Below the pieces are notes generated by a model, which ran no database searches, was not told where the DNA came from, and saw nothing but the letters and a program-made list of their open reading frames with translations. From contig VGFL01000012.1 of NCBI GenBank assembly GCA_016868915.1, positions 1 through 44,807 of the forward strand: DNA of 44,807 nucleotides. Reading direction: 5' to 3'. Below, one piece after another: positions 18,105-43,154 of this stretch (the first letter of the stretch is position 1; each line of letters begins with the position of its first letter). A program made the position numbers and the translations under genes. The DNA comes from Bacteroidota bacterium (lineage in GTDB: Bacteria > Bacteroidota > Bacteroidia > Flavobacteriales_D > Crocinitomicaceae).

Positions 18105-19118
18105 TTATTCAAATGCAATATCAGCCTCTATTTTTGTCTTAAAGGAGCGGATCATTTTTTCTAAATCAAAGAAATAACTGTTTCGTTCTTTTTCGTTTAC
18201 CTGGCTAATTAAACTTGAGTTCGCTAATTGTTTATCTAAAATCTGCTTGGTATCTTTAACATAGTTTACATCAGTGGTGTGAAGATAATTCATAATATTA
18301 TGAGAAATAAAAATACCTTTTGTCTCATTAGCTTCGTAATAAAAGGTAGCTTCCGCATTGATTGTTTCATTGATGTACATATCGAAATTGTTGCCTTGGG
18401 CAGGAGCTGATGTACCAAAAATAAATTTTTTACCAATGGAAGCTTGATTTTTAAGGTGTTCAACTAAAAGTATAGCTCTATCGCAAAGAAACAAAGCATA
18501 AGTTGGATTTTCGAATAGATGAGCTTTATAGTAATACCAAATTTGCCGCATGAAACCACGCATCAACTCTTGATCGTATATTTCTATCGTCGGAATCTGG
18601 TTATACAACTGTAAAATTTCTTTTCCTAAATCAAAAACTCCATCTGGTATTTTTTCATGGACAAATTTTTGGTTCGAATAATCGGAAATTTGTAAATGTG
18701 TTTTGGCCCAAAAGAATAAGCGAAAACGAATAAGTTGAGGAAAATTTAGTAATTGAAAAAATTGTACATTATTAATGGCTAATAATATCGTTGGATTTGA
18801 AAATGATTTTAAATGAGCGAAACGATCTCGTATACCCTCCAAATAACTAACTAAACTAAAATCATATGTATTTAACGGCGGGAAGTCAAACATTGCCTTG
18901 CCTGTTCCAATTTCGGCAAGCTTGTCAAATGAAATTTCAAAATGTTTACAAATTTTTTGAATCTCACTTGCACTTAATGGCGTTTCATTTCTATAACGCC
19001 TATAAACAGCATCAGGGCTAATATGCAGAACCTCCGATAAAGCATTACCAAGTGAATCTTGATTTCCAATTTTTGATTTTATCTCCTGAAAAATCAAACT
19101 TTGTATGGATATTTTCAT
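18105..19118 (-). CDS. HTH transcriptional regulator with a large C-terminal domain
   Basis: The 337-aa protein has an N-terminal helix-turn-helix of XRE type (residues about 20-65, LSEVLHISPDAVYRRYRNE then LSASEIQKICKHFEISFDKL). About 250 helical residues without a family I recognise follow (for example FRLFFWAKTHLQISDYSNQ and FMRQIWYYYKAHLFE). A perfect palindrome TACTCTAA-AG-TTAGAGTA (19119-19136) directly touches the start codon, which strongly suggests autoregulation or control of the neighbouring gene. The same-strand CsgG-like gene follows. It is not near any phage gene, so it is probably a chromosomal regulator of an envelope function. Confidence 0.82.
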   Translation of the reverse strand: MKISIQSLIFQEIKSKIGNQDSLGNALSEVLHISPDAVYRRYRNETPLSASEIQKICKHFEISFDKLAEIGTGKAMFDFPPLNTYDFSLVSYLEGIRDRFAHLKSFSNPTILLAINNVQFFQLLNFPQLIRFRLFFWAKTHLQISDYSNQKFVHEKIPDGVFDLGKEILQLYNQIPTIEIYDQELMRGFMRQIWYYYKAHLFENPTYALFLCDRAILLVEHLKNQASIGKKFIFGTSAPAQGNNFDMYINETINAEATFYYEANETKGIFISHNIMNYLHTTDVNYVKDTKQILDKQLANSSLISQVNEKERNSYFFDLEKMIRSFKTKIEADIAFE

Positions 19119-19136
19119 TACTCTAAAGTTAGAGTA
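19119..19136. promoter_or_regulatory. Perfect palindrome abutting the HTH regulator start
   Basis: TACTCTAA, AG, TTAGAGTA: 8-bp arms with a 2-base centre, starting at the base immediately upstream of the ATG. The 2-base loop is too small for an RNA hairpin, so a protein-binding DNA dyad is more likely. Confidence 0.6.
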
Positions 19137-19284
19137 AATAAATTTATAAATGAGAATGACGTTTTAAAAATTGAAAAACATAGTAAAAAGCAAGAGTTTT
19201 ATCTAATTAAAATTGCTCCTCAATTGAAATATTTAGGCAACCATTAGGTAAAAAAGTAGTTTTTAAACTTATGTTGCAAAGTTG

Positions 19285-19292
19285 TATATTTA
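19285..19292 (+). promoter_or_regulatory. Candidate -7 element of the T9SS substrate gene
   Basis: TATATTTA is a 7-of-8 match to TAnnTTTG, 15 bases upstream of the TTG start. A TTTTT run at 19260-19264 stands 20 bases upstream in place of the -33 TTTG. Support is weak. Confidence 0.3.
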
Positions 19293-19307
19293 CATTTTAG
19301 GTTAAAA

Positions 19308-22300
19308 TTGAAAAAAACTGGATTAATTTTCTATTTACTGATATCCCTCAGTATATTTGGGCAAGACATATGGATTACCCCAAACCGCGGTCAATGGGAT
19401 GACCGTATTCTTTACAATGTAGACATTAATCAAGGAAAATTGTATTTAGAAAAAAACCAAATGACCTTTTTCCTTACTGATGCCATGGCCCACAATCACG
19501 CTGAACATAAACATCACTCAGAGGAAAAAAATGGAACTGCTTATCATGTGATCAACCAGACTTTTTTAAATGCAAACCCAAATACCTACAAAGAGGAAAA
19601 AATACCATCAAATCATTACTCAAACTATATCTTAGGGTCTGACCAAACTAAATGGAAATCAGAGATTTATTCCTTTCAGGAAGTTCATTACAAGCAATTC
19701 TACACTGATATTGATCTTTTTTACTGTACTAAAGATAAGCAACTGAGCTATAACTTTTTTATCGCACCACATGCTGATCCCTCTCAAATACAATTCAAGC
19801 TTACCGGCGCAGAGTCGGTCAAAATAACGGCTGAAGGCACACTCGTTTTAAAACATCGGTTTGGTGAAATAATAGAATCCGCACCTATTGCCTGGACTGA
19901 AAATGAAAAAGGAATAAAAACCAAAGTGGCCTGTCGATTCCTCCAAATGCAAGATACAATACGATTTTATTTCCCCGACGGATACGCAAAAAATGAAAAA
20001 CTAATTATAGACCCCAGTCTGACATTTTCCACCTTTACAGGTTCAACAGCTGATAATTGGGGCTTCACTGCCACACCCGATATCAATGGGAATTTGTTTG
20101 GGGGGGGTATTGTTTTTGGGGCGGGCTATCCGCTCTCAACAGGCGCTTACGACCTAAGTTTTAATTCTGGAACTGGAACATTTCCTATCGATATCGGAAT
20201 AACAAAATATAATGCGGTTGGTACTAACATCTTATATTCAACGTATATCGGAGGAAGTGGGAATGAAACACCTCACTCTATTGTATCCGCCCAAAATGGT
20301 GAATTATACATTTATGGTGTAACGTCATCTACAAATTTCCCTATGGCAGGAACACCCTATGACAATACGCACAATGGGGGGCCTTATGAAATAGAAAACT
20401 CATTAGAATTTAACGGTGCTGATATTTATGTAGCACGCTTGAATCCGAATGGTACCACTTTATTGTCATCAACCTATATTGGAGGAGCAAATACAGATGG
20501 TCTAAATACGAATAGTTTAAATTACAATTATGGCGATCAATTTCGGGGCGAGATTATCCTCGATGGTAATCAAAATGTCTATATATCGAGTACGACAGCC
20601 TCATCAAATTTTCCAACTGTTTCAGCAAGTCAATCCACATTAAATGGAAGTCAAGATGCAGTTATTTTTAGATTAAATTCGTCACTTAGCACGCTCGCGT
20701 GGAGTACTTATTTTGGTGGTAGTGGGCTCGAAACAGGAAATGCAGTATCTATTTCAAGCAATGGATATATTTATGCCGCGGGAGGTACTTCTTCATCCAG
20801 CTTACCGCTTTCTCTCGGCAATGATTTATCATTCAATGGAGGTATTTCTGATGGTTATGTATTACGCTTAAATCAATCTAATGGCCAATTTGTTGCGGGA
20901 ACTTACATGGGAATGAATGAATATGATCAAACCTATTTTGTTGATACAGATATCGATAATTTTGTGTACGTGTATGGTCAGAGTGAATCAAATTGGGGTG
21001 TTTCGCCAGGGTGTTATGGAACCCCGAATTCTGGACAATTTGTGAGAAAATACTCGGCAGATTTACTTTCTATTTCTTGGTCAACGATGATTGGTGCTGC
21101 ACATGGACATGTTGAAATATCACCTACTGCTTTTCTCGTTTCAGATTGTTATGATATTTATTTGGCAGGATGGGGAGGTATTTTAAATCAAAGCGGACAG
21201 GCAACCTCTTCAACGAGTAATAATTTTCAATGTACCCCAGATGGGTATCAACTCATAACAAACGGAAATAATTTTTACATCGCAGTCCTTGATCAAGATG
21301 CCAGTGCACTGAAGTATGCAACATTCATGGGAGGAACCACCAGTAGCTCCAACCACGTGGATGGAGGAACGAGCCGTTTCGACAAATCGGGAAGGATTTA
21401 TCATGCGGTTTGTGGTGCATGTGGAGGAAACGATTATGGATTTACAAGCACTCCTGGAAGTTGGTCTCCAACGAATAACAGTCCAAATTGTAACATGGCA
21501 ACCTTCAAGTTTGAATTAAGTGCAATTCAGGCCATTGCAGCACAACCTGTACCCTTAATTTGTATACCGCAATCCGTTTATTTCCAAAATAATAGTATTA
21601 ATGGAAACGCTTATTTATGGTACTTCGGAGATGGCAACTCATCCACAGAATTTGAACCTATTTACCAATATACAACGCCAGGAGTTTATGATGTAACCCT
21701 CATTGTCACTGATACGAATGGCTGCTTTAGTCCAGATTCCAGTACGATAACAATTAATATAGGTTCATTTGAAGGAGGTGTGGTGGCTCCACCGTCACCC
21801 ATTTGTCCGGGTGATAACTTTCAATTTGAAGCATACGGCGGAGCAAATTACAGCTGGACACCTGCTCAATACTTGAATAATCCAAATGTATACAACCCAG
21901 TTGCGACAATAACTCAAACCACTACTTTCACTGTCACAATCTCGGACAGCTGCGGCTCTGTAGCGTTCCCCGTAACACTCGAAGTGTATGATAATTCCAT
22001 TTCGATTTCTCCGGATACAAGTATTTGTATTGGAAACAGCGTCCAGCTCAATGTAAACTCATCAGGATCCATCACATGGTCCCCACCAACCTATCTAAAT
22101 AATCCGACTTCTTTTTCACCAATATGTACGCCGCAACAATCCACTACGTATACAGCAAATGTTACCAATCAATATGGATGCGAAAATCAAGCTCAGGTCA
22201 CCATTAACGTTTTTCTCAATCCACCTATACCCATTTTAGAAGATACAGTTCAAGTATGTGAGGGAGGCAGTGTTGGTATTGTTGTTTCTGGTGGAAATAG

Positions 22301-24043: not shown

Positions 24044-25162
24044 TTAATGGATTAAATTAAATTGGATTTCTGTCCAAACCTTTTCAGCCGCATAATCCCA
24101 CGAAAATAACTGAGCACGTTGAATTCCATTATTTCTCAAAGTATCTCGCAATTCTTGATCGTGAAACAGACGATTCATGCCTTTGAGAATCTCATTTTCG
24201 TTGAATGGGTCACAGTAAATTGCGGCATCTCCCGCAATTTCAGGCAAACTGGTTTTATTCCCGGATAAAATGGGAATACCACATTTCATCGCTTCAACCA
24301 ACGGAATTCCAAATCCTTCAAAATAAGGTACATATGCTAAAGCGAATGCAGAGGCCGTATATTGAACCAATTTTTTTTGTGTGAGATGTCCGGTAAATCG
24401 GATGTTTTTTTTAACCGTTTCTGGAATATCGATGGAATGCCCTTTCCACATGGGTTTTCCAACGATAACCAATTCCATATCTGGAAAGGAGTTTTTATCC
24501 ATGAAACGCTCAAAGGAATTTACCAAGCGTTGCACATTTTTGCGTGGATGAATAGACCCGACAAAAAGAAAATAGGGTTTCAGATTATTATCGTCTCTAA
24601 ATACTTGAATTTCCTCATTTGAAAAAACACGATATTTTTCTGAAGCGCCATTCCAAGCAACTACAATTTTTTGAGGGTCAATTTTATAAGTTGTTACAAT
24701 ATCTTGCTTCGAAGATTCCGATACAGTGATTATTTTCTGCGAGTGACGGGCAAATTTCGGAAAGTATTTTCGGTAATACCAACCCACTAATCCCGGTAAA
24801 TCTTCCGGATAATGTTCAAAATTTATATCGTGTATGACGTTTATTTGAGGAATACGTGAACCTAAAACTAACGAACCGTCTGGGGAGAAAAGTACGTCGA
24901 TTTTATATTTTTTTAGCGCTCGGTTCAAGCTCCATTCAAACCAAATTAGGTAGAGAAAGGGATGTCTGGCTTGAGGTTTTAGAACTATTTCTTTACAATT
25001 AGAACCGAATTTAAATTTCTTGTCCACTTTACGATCAAAAAACAACATAAATTCATGTTCGGGATGATTTTGTACAATTCGTCGAACAACTTCAAAAGTA
25101 TACCAGCCAAATCCTTCCATTTTATCGGATAGTAAAAAGCGGGTATTTATTCCTATACGCAA
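24044..25162 (-). CDS. Glycosyltransferase family 4 (GT-B fold)
   Basis: The 372-aa protein matches GT4/group 1 glycosyltransferases: an N-terminal MRIGINTRFLLSDKMEGFGWYTFEVV, the linker HDINFEHYPEDLPG, and a C-terminal nucleotide-sugar domain with FLFVGSIHPRKNVQRLVNSF near 190 and EGFGIPLVEAMKCGIPILSGNKTSLPE (E-x7-E motif) near 285. The first domain is soluble and the protein may associate with the inner membrane through basic loops. It lies 3 bases after DUF3050 and in turn aspS, so all three are one transcription unit. The sugar and acceptor are unknown. Confidence 0.92.
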   Translation of the reverse strand: MRIGINTRFLLSDKMEGFGWYTFEVVRRIVQNHPEHEFMLFFDRKVDKKFKFGSNCKEIVLKPQARHPFLYLIWFEWSLNRALKKYKIDVLFSPDGSLVLGSRIPQINVIHDINFEHYPEDLPGLVGWYYRKYFPKFARHSQKIITVSESSKQDIVTTYKIDPQKIVVAWNGASEKYRVFSNEEIQVFRDDNNLKPYFLFVGSIHPRKNVQRLVNSFERFMDKNSFPDMELVIVGKPMWKGHSIDIPETVKKNIRFTGHLTQKKLVQYTASAFALAYVPYFEGFGIPLVEAMKCGIPILSGNKTSLPEIAGDAAIYCDPFNENEILKGMNRLFHDQELRDTLRNNGIQRAQLFSWDYAAEKVWTEIQFNLIH

Positions 25163-40888: not shown

Positions 40889-42106
40889 ATGATGAAAACA
40901 ATACAAATACCTATAAATATAGTTAGGCGTGATTTTTATATCAATCGCGTAAAGCCATTTATAGGTAAACAAATTATTAAAGCTTTGACTGGCCAACGTC
41001 GTGTCGGTAAAAGTTATTTACTTTTTCAACTTATTGAATATATTAAACACGAAGATGCAAACGCTACGATTTTATATATTAACATGGAGGATTTGGCGTT
41101 TTCAACTATTCAAAATGCCATTGATTTAAGTAACTATGTGCTTTCAAATCAATCAGCGGATGGAAAAACCTATGTTTTTATAGATGAAATACAAGAAGTA
41201 GAAAGTTTTGAGAAAGCACTTCGTTCATTAGTTTTAAACCAAAATTTGGACATTTACTGTACAGGAAGTAATGCTAATCTGCTCTCGGGTGAATTGGCAA
41301 CGGTATTAAGTGGAAGATTTATTGAAATCACTGTTTACAGCCTTTCGTATCCTGAGTTTTTGATGTTCCACAAAGTTAAAGATACATTAGAGTCCCTTGA
41401 AATGTATATTAAATGGGGTGGTTTACCTTATTTGATGCATTTACCCAAAAGAGATGAGATTATTTATGAATATTTAAAAAACATATATTCAACAATTATT
41501 TATCGCGATATTGTTCAACGGTTTGCGTTGCGTAATGTCCGTTTTTTGGAACAATTAATACTTTTTTTGGCTGATAATACGGGAAGCTTATTTTCAGCAA
41601 AGAAAATAAGTGATTTCTTAAAGTCACAACGAATCAATATTGCACCTAATCAAGTTCAGGTTTACTTGAGTCATCTTGAAAGTGCCTTTATAATTCATCG
41701 AGTGGAACGATTTGATATTGCAGGAAAACGCATTTTTGAGGTTGGCGACAAGTATTATTTTGAAAATTTAGGGATACGTAATGCAATTTGGGGTTATCGA
41801 TTGGAAGATCGAGCAAAACTTGTAGAAAATAGTGTTTACAATCATTTGATTTTTAAAGGATACAAGGTAAAAGTTGGAGTAATTCCAATTGGAGAAATTG
41901 ATTTTGTGTGCGAACGTCAAGGAGAAAAATTATATGTTCAAGTGGCATTAACAATCAACGAAAAACAAACTATCGAACGAGAATTCGGCAACTTACTAAA
42001 AATCAAAGACAATCACCCAAAAATAGTGGTTACACTCGACGCATTCTCTGGGAATTCTTATCATGGAATCCAACATGTAACGCTTCAACAATTTTTAATG
42101 CAATAA
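40889..42106 (+). CDS. AAA ATPase with DUF4143 and nuclease-fold C-terminal region
   Basis: The 405-aa protein is an ATP-binding protein of the AAA_14/DUF4143 type. Walker A is GQRRVGKSYLL (near residue 35-45), Walker B YVFIDEIQEV (near 93-102), and a sensor-like YCTGSNANLLSGELATVLSGRFIEI follows near 128-152. The DUF4143 part (about 160-340) includes WGGLPYLMHLPKRDEIIYEYL and a winged-helix-like segment. The C-terminus GEIDFVCERQGEKLYVQVAL resembles a PD-(D/E)xK fold, with VQVA in place of the usual E-x-K, so nuclease activity is doubtful. Family function is unknown; members are abundant and scattered, suggesting horizontal spread. It is preceded by phased repeats and followed by a hairpin-rich block. 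Confidence 0.9.
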   Translation: MMKTIQIPINIVRRDFYINRVKPFIGKQIIKALTGQRRVGKSYLLFQLIEYIKHEDANATILYINMEDLAFSTIQNAIDLSNYVLSNQSADGKTYVFIDEIQEVESFEKALRSLVLNQNLDIYCTGSNANLLSGELATVLSGRFIEITVYSLSYPEFLMFHKVKDTLESLEMYIKWGGLPYLMHLPKRDEIIYEYLKNIYSTIIYRDIVQRFALRNVRFLEQLILFLADNTGSLFSAKKISDFLKSQRINIAPNQVQVYLSHLESAFIIHRVERFDIAGKRIFEVGDKYYFENLGIRNAIWGYRLEDRAKLVENSVYNHLIFKGYKVKVGVIPIGEIDFVCERQGEKLYVQVALTINEKQTIEREFGNLLKIKDNHPKIVVTLDAFSGNSYHGIQHVTLQQFLMQ

Positions 42107-42122
42107 TTTTTTGAAATTGTTA

Positions 42123-42319
42123 AATCGTTGAAACGATTGGTGAATCAGGGTTATCGCCTCCTAGCCTTGGGTTTCCACCTATACATTCGTTTCGGTCGAT
42201 GAATAAACCCGAGACTAGGTGGACAACCACACATTCCGCAAACCATTTTATTGCCTGTCTGCCGGACAGGCAGGGTTTACCTACATCTCCTTTGCTTCGC
42301 TGAAGCTACGCGAAAGCAA
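42123..42319. repeat. Candidate dispersed intergenic repeat with multiple hairpins
   Basis: The block holds at least four inverted repeats: 42123-42138 (AATCGTT-GA-AACGATT); 42160-42174 with 42205-42219 (CCTAGCCTTGGGTTT against AAACCCGAGACTAGG, one mismatch and one wobble); 42252-42272 (8-bp stem, 5-base loop); and 42292-42300 with 42310-42319 (one bulge). CCACCTA at 42175-42181 can alternatively pair with TAGGTGG (42216-42222). Similar motifs (GCCTGTC..GACAGGC, TTCGCTGAAGCTACG) look familiar from Bacteroidetes intergenic repeats, but that is memory, not search. Confidence 0.5.
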
Positions 42320-42331
42320 GAAAAACAAAAA

Positions 42332-42355
42332 AAAACACCCCGAATGAGGTGTTTT
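42332..42355 (-). terminator. Terminator, distal of a tandem pair
   Basis: AAAACACC and GGTGTTTT form a perfect 8-bp stem with an 8-base loop; on the minus strand a run of T (42327-42335, partly in the stem) follows. It lies 68 bases past the lipoprotein stop and could also act weakly for the ATPase on the plus strand. Confidence 0.75.
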
Positions 42356-42375
42356 CAAATAAATTAGGGCAAAAA

Positions 42376-42405
42376 AATCCCCCACGATGAAGCTTGTGAG
42401 GAATT
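42376..42405 (-). terminator. Terminator, proximal of a tandem pair
   Basis: Minus-strand AATTCCTCAC pairs with GTGGGGGATT (10 bp, two G-U pairs, 10-base loop), followed by TTTTT. It sits 18 bases past the lipoprotein stop at 42423. Confidence 0.7.
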
Positions 42406-42422
42406 ATTAATTCATACAACAA

Positions 42423-42935
42423 TTATAACTTCTTAAGTTTAAATGATCCTGAAACAGCTCTAGATGAAAATGTTCCATCCTGATTTGATTCAGCAATTGT
42501 TCCTTCAATAGTTCCTTTAACAAAATTTGAAGTTTCTTCAGTAATTATTACCTTAGGATATGCAATAGTTCCATTTGTTGTTTGTTTTCCACTCACAAGT
42601 GGAATAGCCCACGGGCCACTAATTGTCATAATAAAACAGCTTTGAGAGGTATTCCCAATAATGAAAGTGCCCTCTCCATCTGGAACAAAAAATGAACAAT
42701 TAAAATTTGGAATAGAAGCAACACTTCCTTCAATCAATTGCACGGCATTATAACCACTGCAGGTTGAACCTGAATTTTTTAGGTAGAGGGCTTTTCCGTC
42801 CATACTAGTACTAGAGTTTCCAGACCAAACAAATGTTTGACCTTTAACAGTAACTGTAAAATATGAATTACCGCCATTTATAGCATTACAGCCGTATACA
42901 AGAGGAAATAACAAAAAAAATAATAAGTTTTTCAT
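42423..42935 (-). CDS. Hypothetical lipoprotein
   Basis: The 170-aa protein has a short lipoprotein signal (MKNLLFFLLFPLVYGC, lipobox LVYGC at residue 16). The mature part is beta-rich, with Cys residues (GSTCSGY, NFNCSFF, SQSCFIM) that could form disulfides. A central YFTVTVKGQTFVWSGNSS start and a C-terminal GTIEGTIAESNQDGTFSSRAVSGSFKLKKL resemble small Bacteroidetes beta-sandwich lipoproteins, but I do not recognise a family with confidence. It is probably monocistronic, with tandem terminators downstream. A DUF6252-type assignment is possible. Confidence 0.78.
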   Translation of the reverse strand: MKNLLFFLLFPLVYGCNAINGGNSYFTVTVKGQTFVWSGNSSTSMDGKALYLKNSGSTCSGYNAVQLIEGSVASIPNFNCSFFVPDGEGTFIIGNTSQSCFIMTISGPWAIPLVSGKQTTNGTIAYPKVIITEETSNFVKGTIEGTIAESNQDGTFSSRAVSGSFKLKKL

Positions 42936-43032
42936 TTTGTTTAGTTTAATTTAAGAATAGTAAAATCTTAATTTTTAATCACCAGTATATTAAAAAGGCC
43001 TATCCAAAAAAGTAGCTACTTTACGATGTGAT

Positions 43033-43056
43033 TTTAATTTGGAAAACCAAATTAAA
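43033..43056 (-). terminator. Hairpin, distal of a pair downstream of the 43155 lipoprotein gene
   Basis: TTTAATTTGG and CCAAATTAAA form a perfect 10-bp stem with a 4-base loop. There is no clear T-run on the minus strand, so terminator function is uncertain; a processing or stability structure is the alternative. Confidence 0.45.
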
Positions 43057-43059
43057 CTT

Positions 43060-43092
43060 AAAGCGGAAAATCCTTTATGGAAATCCCGCTTT
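43060..43092 (-). terminator. Hairpin, proximal of a pair downstream of the 43155 lipoprotein gene
   Basis: AAAGCGG and CCGCTTT pair (7 bp), with an inner TCC/GGA helix and an internal loop. It is about 62 bases past the stop. The tail TTTAAGTTTAATTT is T-rich but interrupted. Confidence 0.45.
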
Positions 43093-43154
43093 TCAAAAAG
43101 TTTTATCGGACACAAGTGATTAGTATTATTAACTTTTTCATATTTAGCATTTTA

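Follow-up and report, generated by a model that had tools for sequence, protein, structure and literature searches.

A Structured Intergenic Block in a Bacteroidota Contig as a Probable Relic of a Palindromic Element Associated With a Y1 Transposase

Introduction

Between the stop codon of an ATPase gene and the terminators of the gene facing it, a Crocinitomicaceae contig (GenBank assembly GCA_016868915.1, contig VGFL01000012.1) carries about 200 bp of strongly folded DNA in which two stems compete for the same bases. "The window" refers here to the whole stretch of this contig that was analysed (44,807 nucleotides, positions 1 to 44,807), and the block occupies positions 42123-42319. Does the block encode an RNA that switches between two structures, i.e., an attenuator, a riboswitch or a structured small RNA, or does it belong to a family of repeats? 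A first-pass annotation of the sequence had considered both. Our analysis identifies the block as a remnant of mobile DNA and not as an RNA switch. With a probability of roughly 0.78, it is an orphan copy, now decayed, of a composite palindromic element that is dispersed in the genus and is the DNA partner of a TnpA transposase with the signature of subclass 1.2.

Position and Structure of the Block

The genes on either side, an ATPase gene on the plus strand and a 170-aa gene on the minus strand, both point into the block, which hence occupies a convergent intergenic position. There is no gene 3' of the block on either strand that a leader might control. The block is GC-richer than its surroundings, as the first-pass annotation had it (0.482 for 42123-42319 versus 0.318 and 0.320 for the flanks), and only 0.2% of 197-bp stretches are equally GC-rich. 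The inverted repeats named in that annotation are likewise all present at the coordinates given there; the repeats and the adjoining features are:

40889-42106, plus strand: ATPase gene, AAA_14 and DUF4143 (Pfam AAA_14 2.5e-32, DUF4143 3.1e-13)
42123-42129/42132-42138: inverted repeat AATCGTT/AACGATT
42157-42174/42205-42222: inverted repeat, 18 nt, 83% complementary
42175-42181/42216-42222: inverted repeat CCACCTA/TAGGTGG
42252-42259/42265-42272: inverted repeat TGCCTGTC/GACAGGCA
42331-42356, minus strand: hairpin of an intrinsic terminator with a T run behind it, for the convergent gene 42423-42935
about 42370-42410, minus strand: further terminator for the right-hand gene
42423-42935, minus strand: convergent gene, 170 aa, without Pfam family

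The block folds more stably than all of its dinucleotide shuffles on both strands (z -4.0 for plus, z -5.7 for minus). The two stems that use 42216-42222 are indeed mutually exclusive and near-isoenergetic in an 86-nt fold (-25.7 versus -23.4 kcal/mol). The extent proposed for the block holds only in part: the structure is real, but the element described below is confined to 42122-42280, the 31-nt hairpin that follows is separate, and minus-strand terminators lie beyond. The stem of the terminator at 42331-42356, CACCYCGAATGAGGTG, recurs in the genus beside tRNAs and other genes and is a common terminator.

A Three-Hairpin Element Family in the Genus

Related freshwater bacteria carry, scattered through their genomes, an element of ~110 bp with three hairpins in the order A-B-C and ~20 nt between neighbours. 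A and C are small, and B, in the centre, is a long perfect palindrome. In the aligned copies, A is AAATCGTTGAAACGATT and C is AAACCATTTCAATGGTTT, and B reads, e.g., CCCATAGGTGCGGGATTAATCCCGCACCTATGGG. A covariance model (R1) built from 13 copies in relatives, with the window left out, matches the window on the plus strand at 42122-42280 over the full length of the model (1-111/111; 41.6 bits, E 4.8e-5). Order and spacing of A, B and C are kept in this alignment, and the score is well below the ~110 bits of intact copies. The element starts 16 nt past the stop of the ATPase gene (42106), which is a neighbour and lies outside the element.

In its own genome, the window copy is the only R1 match and the whole block is single-copy, with pieces of it matching other genomes of the genus. 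R1 matches at E<=1e-3 occur in 13 of the 86 congeners and are absent from the other 73; some of the positive genomes carry them at 10-14 distinct loci, the maximum being about 14. The repeat family considered earlier thus exists across the genus but not in the host genome, where a single orphan copy is left, and the copy count proposed as a check would have misled if restricted to the host (1 copy versus up to ~14 loci in congeners). None of 64 sampled elements lies inside an ORF, and 47 of them follow a gene on the same strand, often a few nt from its stop. A search of phages and plasmids for the block found none.

Covariation had been suggested as a further check, and the stems do covary strongly. 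Among 38 distinct copies of the central palindrome, many pairs are altered on both sides yet still paired (pairs 2, 4 and 11 of palindrome B, for example, occur as C-G, T-A and A-T), and even copies at one shared site (L124/L149) differ by a paired change. However, the element gives a score in both orientations, and the covariation hence reflects the palindromicity of the DNA, which reads equally on either strand. Template switching at quasi-palindromes can keep palindromes perfect without RNA or selection. For both reasons, we rejected covariation as evidence for an RNA; covariation alone is no proof of one.

Comparison of flanks yielded no clean pair of filled and empty sites; it turned up sites that are shared and a single copy with one half deleted. 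In the comparison of L130/L132 with L134 (2531-2584), an element at a shared site is without its right half from the palindrome centre onward, which is a likely route of decay. Around the window copy itself, an empty-site comparison met with a loss of synteny beyond the carboxyltransferase gene, on its downstream side.

Anatomy of the Window Copy

The block has the following parts:

42121-42280, plus strand: the genus-specific element with hairpins A-B-C, in diverged form (covariance model match 42122-42280)
42123-42138, plus strand: hairpin A, AATCGTT-GA-AACGATT; its left edge corresponds to the position of the tnpA stop codon in relatives
42157-42174, plus strand: left arm of hairpin B, the central palindrome
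42175-42204, plus strand: 30-nt insert CCACCTATACATTCGTTTCGGTCGATGAAT in the hairpin B tip, which gives rise to the alternative stem
42205-42222, plus strand: right arm of hairpin B, common to both competing stems
42240-42279, plus strand: hairpin C, AAACCATTTTATT...GGTTTA, with interrupted tip (covariance-model alignment)
42253-42273, plus strand: 21-nt palindrome GCCTGTCTGCCGGACAGGCAG inside the tip of hairpin C
42290-42320, plus strand: 31-nt hairpin CTTTGCTTCGCTGAAGCTACGCGAAAGCAAG, a palindrome that stands apart from the element and looks mobile

Hairpin A is intact and the arms of hairpin B have drifted. The competing stems exist because the insert at the B tip starts with CCACCTA, a repeat of the outer arm; sequence added at the tips of palindromic repeats can yield exclusive stems that look riboswitch-like. 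Most copies are without this insert, which is also found at the B tip in G014 (L071) and G042 (L072). Its 22-nt core has one exact match outside G000 among 84,980 species genomes, on a contig of G042, and a wide distribution of the insert in Bacteroidota is thereby rejected. Within 299 genomes of the order, the only other match to the insert has 3 mismatches and lies in an apparent open reading frame.

Hairpin C is uninterrupted in relatives and reads AAACCATTTYAATGGTTT. The 21-nt palindrome inside its tip in the window is the sole copy among the 86 congeners; palindromes resembling it occur in 9 further genomes within the order, once in each (0 for a reversed control pattern). The TGCCTGTC and TTGCTTCGC hairpins had been taken for genome-dispersed elements, which they are not: each is single-copy here, with 1 and 2 copies, respectively, in the genus.

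The 31-nt hairpin at 42290-42320 is single-copy both in the window genome and in G001, where it interrupts, with 1 mismatch, an ORF6N gene (L023:1174-1204, G001:C228). The ORF6N frame there reads ...RRNIERF up to the hairpin and continues behind it with PTDFMFELTEDE... in a different frame. The split gene indicates that this palindrome was inserted at an unrelated site in another genome.

Association With a Y1 Transposase

Intact tnpA genes of the MSKSYSK type are present in four genomes (G009, G042, G117, and G119), and the element is found at the stop codon in 4/4. The gene encodes 149 aa (TAAATCGTTGAAACGAT...), the element begins exactly at its stop codon, and in G009 elements lie on both sides of the gene. 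Furthermore, a C-terminal tnpA coding tail, called above the 99% control score, stands directly upstream of 16 of 63 sampled elements and downstream of none (0/63); the rest of the gene is missing from most of these. All 4 genomes with the intact tnpA lineage are element-positive, for which a hypergeometric estimate that ignores shared ancestry gives p ~3e-4 under random spread. Nine element-bearing congeners are without an intact tnpA of the MSKSYSK lineage, no Y1_Tnp was found in the window's own genome, and no tnpA was found in viral contigs. Several sub-families of the element, e.g., those behind LamG/T9SS genes, differ in hairpin A and are without a tnpA tail, so that a single transposase does not have to act on every one of them.

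Judged from its sequence, the partner TnpA is a short IS200-like Y1 HUH transposase. It matches Pfam Y1_Tnp (1e-28), the NCBIfam IS200/IS605 transposase model NF033573 (76.8 bits, cut-off 55) and, in the PDB, the TnpA proteins of ISDra2 and ISHp608; with the REP-associated transposase (RAYT) model it reaches 33 bits (cut-off 80). Its motifs are DHVH, WQ and YIRNQKxHH, i.e., Y---Q--HH, within ~149 aa.

By analogy with IS200/IS605 TnpA and its ends, this TnpA would recognise the hairpins of the element as single-stranded DNA and move or copy either the element or tnpA together with the element. A similar action may be compared to that of RAYTs, which are thought to act on REPs. Elements that lack tnpA are found scattered between genes, mostly at their 3' ends. 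In the window, there is no transposase left, the arms of B have drifted, B and C have additional sequence at the tips, and a third short palindrome adjoins them. If the block has any effect today, it would be at most the one that a generic 3' stem-loop has on the mRNA of the ATPase.

Other tnpA lineages of the genus have palindromes behind them as well. L091 and L151 (near 96.5 kb of G025:C2) show a Y1 tnpA of a different lineage, MSKSLSRIYIHALWSTKRR, and behind it a pair of palindromes with the common core GGGTGTGGGTTTAAACCCACACCC, so this second lineage has its own repeat. More Y---Q--HH lineages in L109, L110, L112, L108, and L153 have short palindromes after them (ACTCCGAAGGAGT, GCTCCTACGGAGC). 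To go by these arrangements, each tnpA lineage of the genus may have its own cognate repeat.

A Parallel Case in Another Order

Persicobacter sp. JZB09, which belongs to another order, has a tnpA with a subclass-1.2-like signature and A-B-C palindromes on both flanks. These palindromes (AACCCTTTCAGGGTT, CGATGGGTTTTCACCCATCG, and ATCCCTTCGGGAT) are unrelated in sequence to the genus element but share its layout, and the element lies within a few nt of the tnpA stop codon. Across 4 Persicobacter replicons, the unit is present at 34 places, among them short copies that come in pairs and have no tnpA. In L216 (CP012861), such short pairs, e.g., at 19087-19309 and 24379-24603, consist of mutually inverted copies ~80 nt apart; they look much like a tnpA unit that has been deleted internally. 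In Bernardetia, a tnpA of the Y---Q--HH type likewise has repeated palindromes on both flanks.

Relation to Known Systems

TnpA proteins of subclass 1.2 are characterised by DH[IV]H, WQ and Y---Q--HH motifs and a median length of 148 aa, and they have been reported to have no REP, generally no IS200-type terminal structures and no IS properties (Quentin et al. 2018, PMC6006769). The TnpA of the genus resembles this subclass, to which we assign it by motifs and length (149 aa, DHVH, WQ, Y---Q--HH), and it is likewise a low-copy protein of Bacteroidota. In contrast to that report, however, the genus tnpA has a three-hairpin element at its stop codon (4/4) as well as dispersed copies, and the Persicobacter tnpA has palindromes on both flanks.

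IS200/IS605 elements and their non-autonomous derivatives (PATEs/MITEs) resemble the present case in three ways: the Y1 TnpA belongs to the same family by its NCBIfam and PDB matches, hairpins adjoin tnpA, and there are short copies that lack tnpA, which Persicobacter exemplifies. In contrast to their single subterminal hairpin, there are three hairpins per end here and many degraded single copies. No tnpB was seen beside the examined tnpA genes. REPtrons, i.e., REP/BIME repeats with their RAYT (TnpA-REP), are similar in that intergenic palindromes, mostly 3' of genes, flank a low-copy Y1 transposase. They differ in the TnpA, which has Y---NP in place of the Y---Q found here, where the RAYT model stays below its cut-off, and in the element, which is ~110 bp long with three hairpins in our case. 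In the copies inspected, the hairpin feet read AAAT/AAAC or CCTA rather than the GT[AG]G of REPs.

TIRtrons (Di Nocera et al. 2013, PMC3733652) consist of tyrosine transposases (TIRYT) with longer inverted repeats on either side, which are also found singly in the genome; in this they are comparable to the present system. They differ in that their transposases are described as relatives of RAYTs. An integron attC is similar by analogy only, as a palindromic site with variable arms that follows one gene after another at the 3' side; attC core sites (GTTRRRY/RYYYAAC) were not seen by eye in the element.

The block in the window is itself an ordinary relic. What is new is that a TnpA subclass reported to be without such partners has elements that resemble REPs or IS ends, and these repeats may be the DNA target that this group was missing. 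The two families with the same three-hairpin layout and unrelated sequence beside tnpA, one in the Flavobacteriales genus and one in Persicobacter, are concrete candidate substrates.

Alternative Explanations

The elements might instead have been selected as 3' terminators or mRNA stabilisers that benefit the host, rather than being products of a mobile element. Their frequent position just behind a same-strand gene (47/64) is in line with this, as are the paired changes that keep palindrome B free of mismatches, also where two copies share one site, although template switching perfects palindromes without selection. Moreover, no element hairpin is followed by a T run on the plus strand, only minus-strand terminators score at the window locus, the distribution is patchy (13/86 genomes), and tnpA tails precede elements. 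We consider such an origin unlikely; a terminator or stabiliser role could be a secondary effect.

A MITE of a DDE-type IS with TA target duplications (IS630/mariner-like) would account for elements that start with TAAA and often finish with TTTA and whose ends resemble inverted repeats. Yet the terminal hairpins are palindromes in themselves, the TA may simply be part of the hairpin, and it is a Y1 tnpA, not a DDE transposase, that is repeatedly fused at the stop codon, which makes this origin very improbable.

A regulatory RNA that switches between the two exclusive stems, for which the strong fold on both strands and the near-equal energies speak, is the least credible of the alternatives: a block between convergent genes cannot be a 5' leader and has no downstream gene to regulate, Rfam gave 0 matches at the gathering score and nothing credible at E<=5, promoter-like sites are no commoner than in shuffles, and family members adjoin unrelated genes. 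A switch conserved in the three insert-bearing copies was unsupported, given that the main stem dominates the fold in the other two.

Neighbouring Genes

In some cases, the elements adjoin ORF6N, KilA-N or AAA_14/DUF4143 genes. An obligate pairing of ATPase and element is ruled out by the closest homologue of the ATPase gene (G105, 73% nucleotide identity) and two more distant homologues, which have no element behind them. Palindromic elements also lie 0-3 nt from the stop of genes of a multi-copy LamG-type (Laminin_G_3) family with a T9SS C-terminal sorting domain (L129, L130, L132, L133, L145, L122, L124, L147, L149, and L152). The members of this family have constant N- and C-termini and highly variable middles, and the family resembles a shuffling surface-protein repertoire.

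These neighbourhoods suggest that the neighbours may be passenger genes. Subclass 1.2 TnpA and three-hairpin repeats could then form a distinct system of Bacteroidota in which the repeats serve as movable 3' boundaries of passengers (LamG/T9SS, ORF6N/KilA-N, and AAA_14-DUF4143 genes being proposed), a single-strand-DNA analogue of gene cassettes. We regard this extension as speculative and unlikely; if it were true, the window would hold a fossil cassette made up of the ATPase gene and the element.

Further to the right in the window, ~120 bp at 42997-43119 match 4 congeners at 81-85% on contigs that are otherwise non-syntenic, one of the matches lying at a contig end. This segment is probably the remnant of another repeat or insertion sequence.
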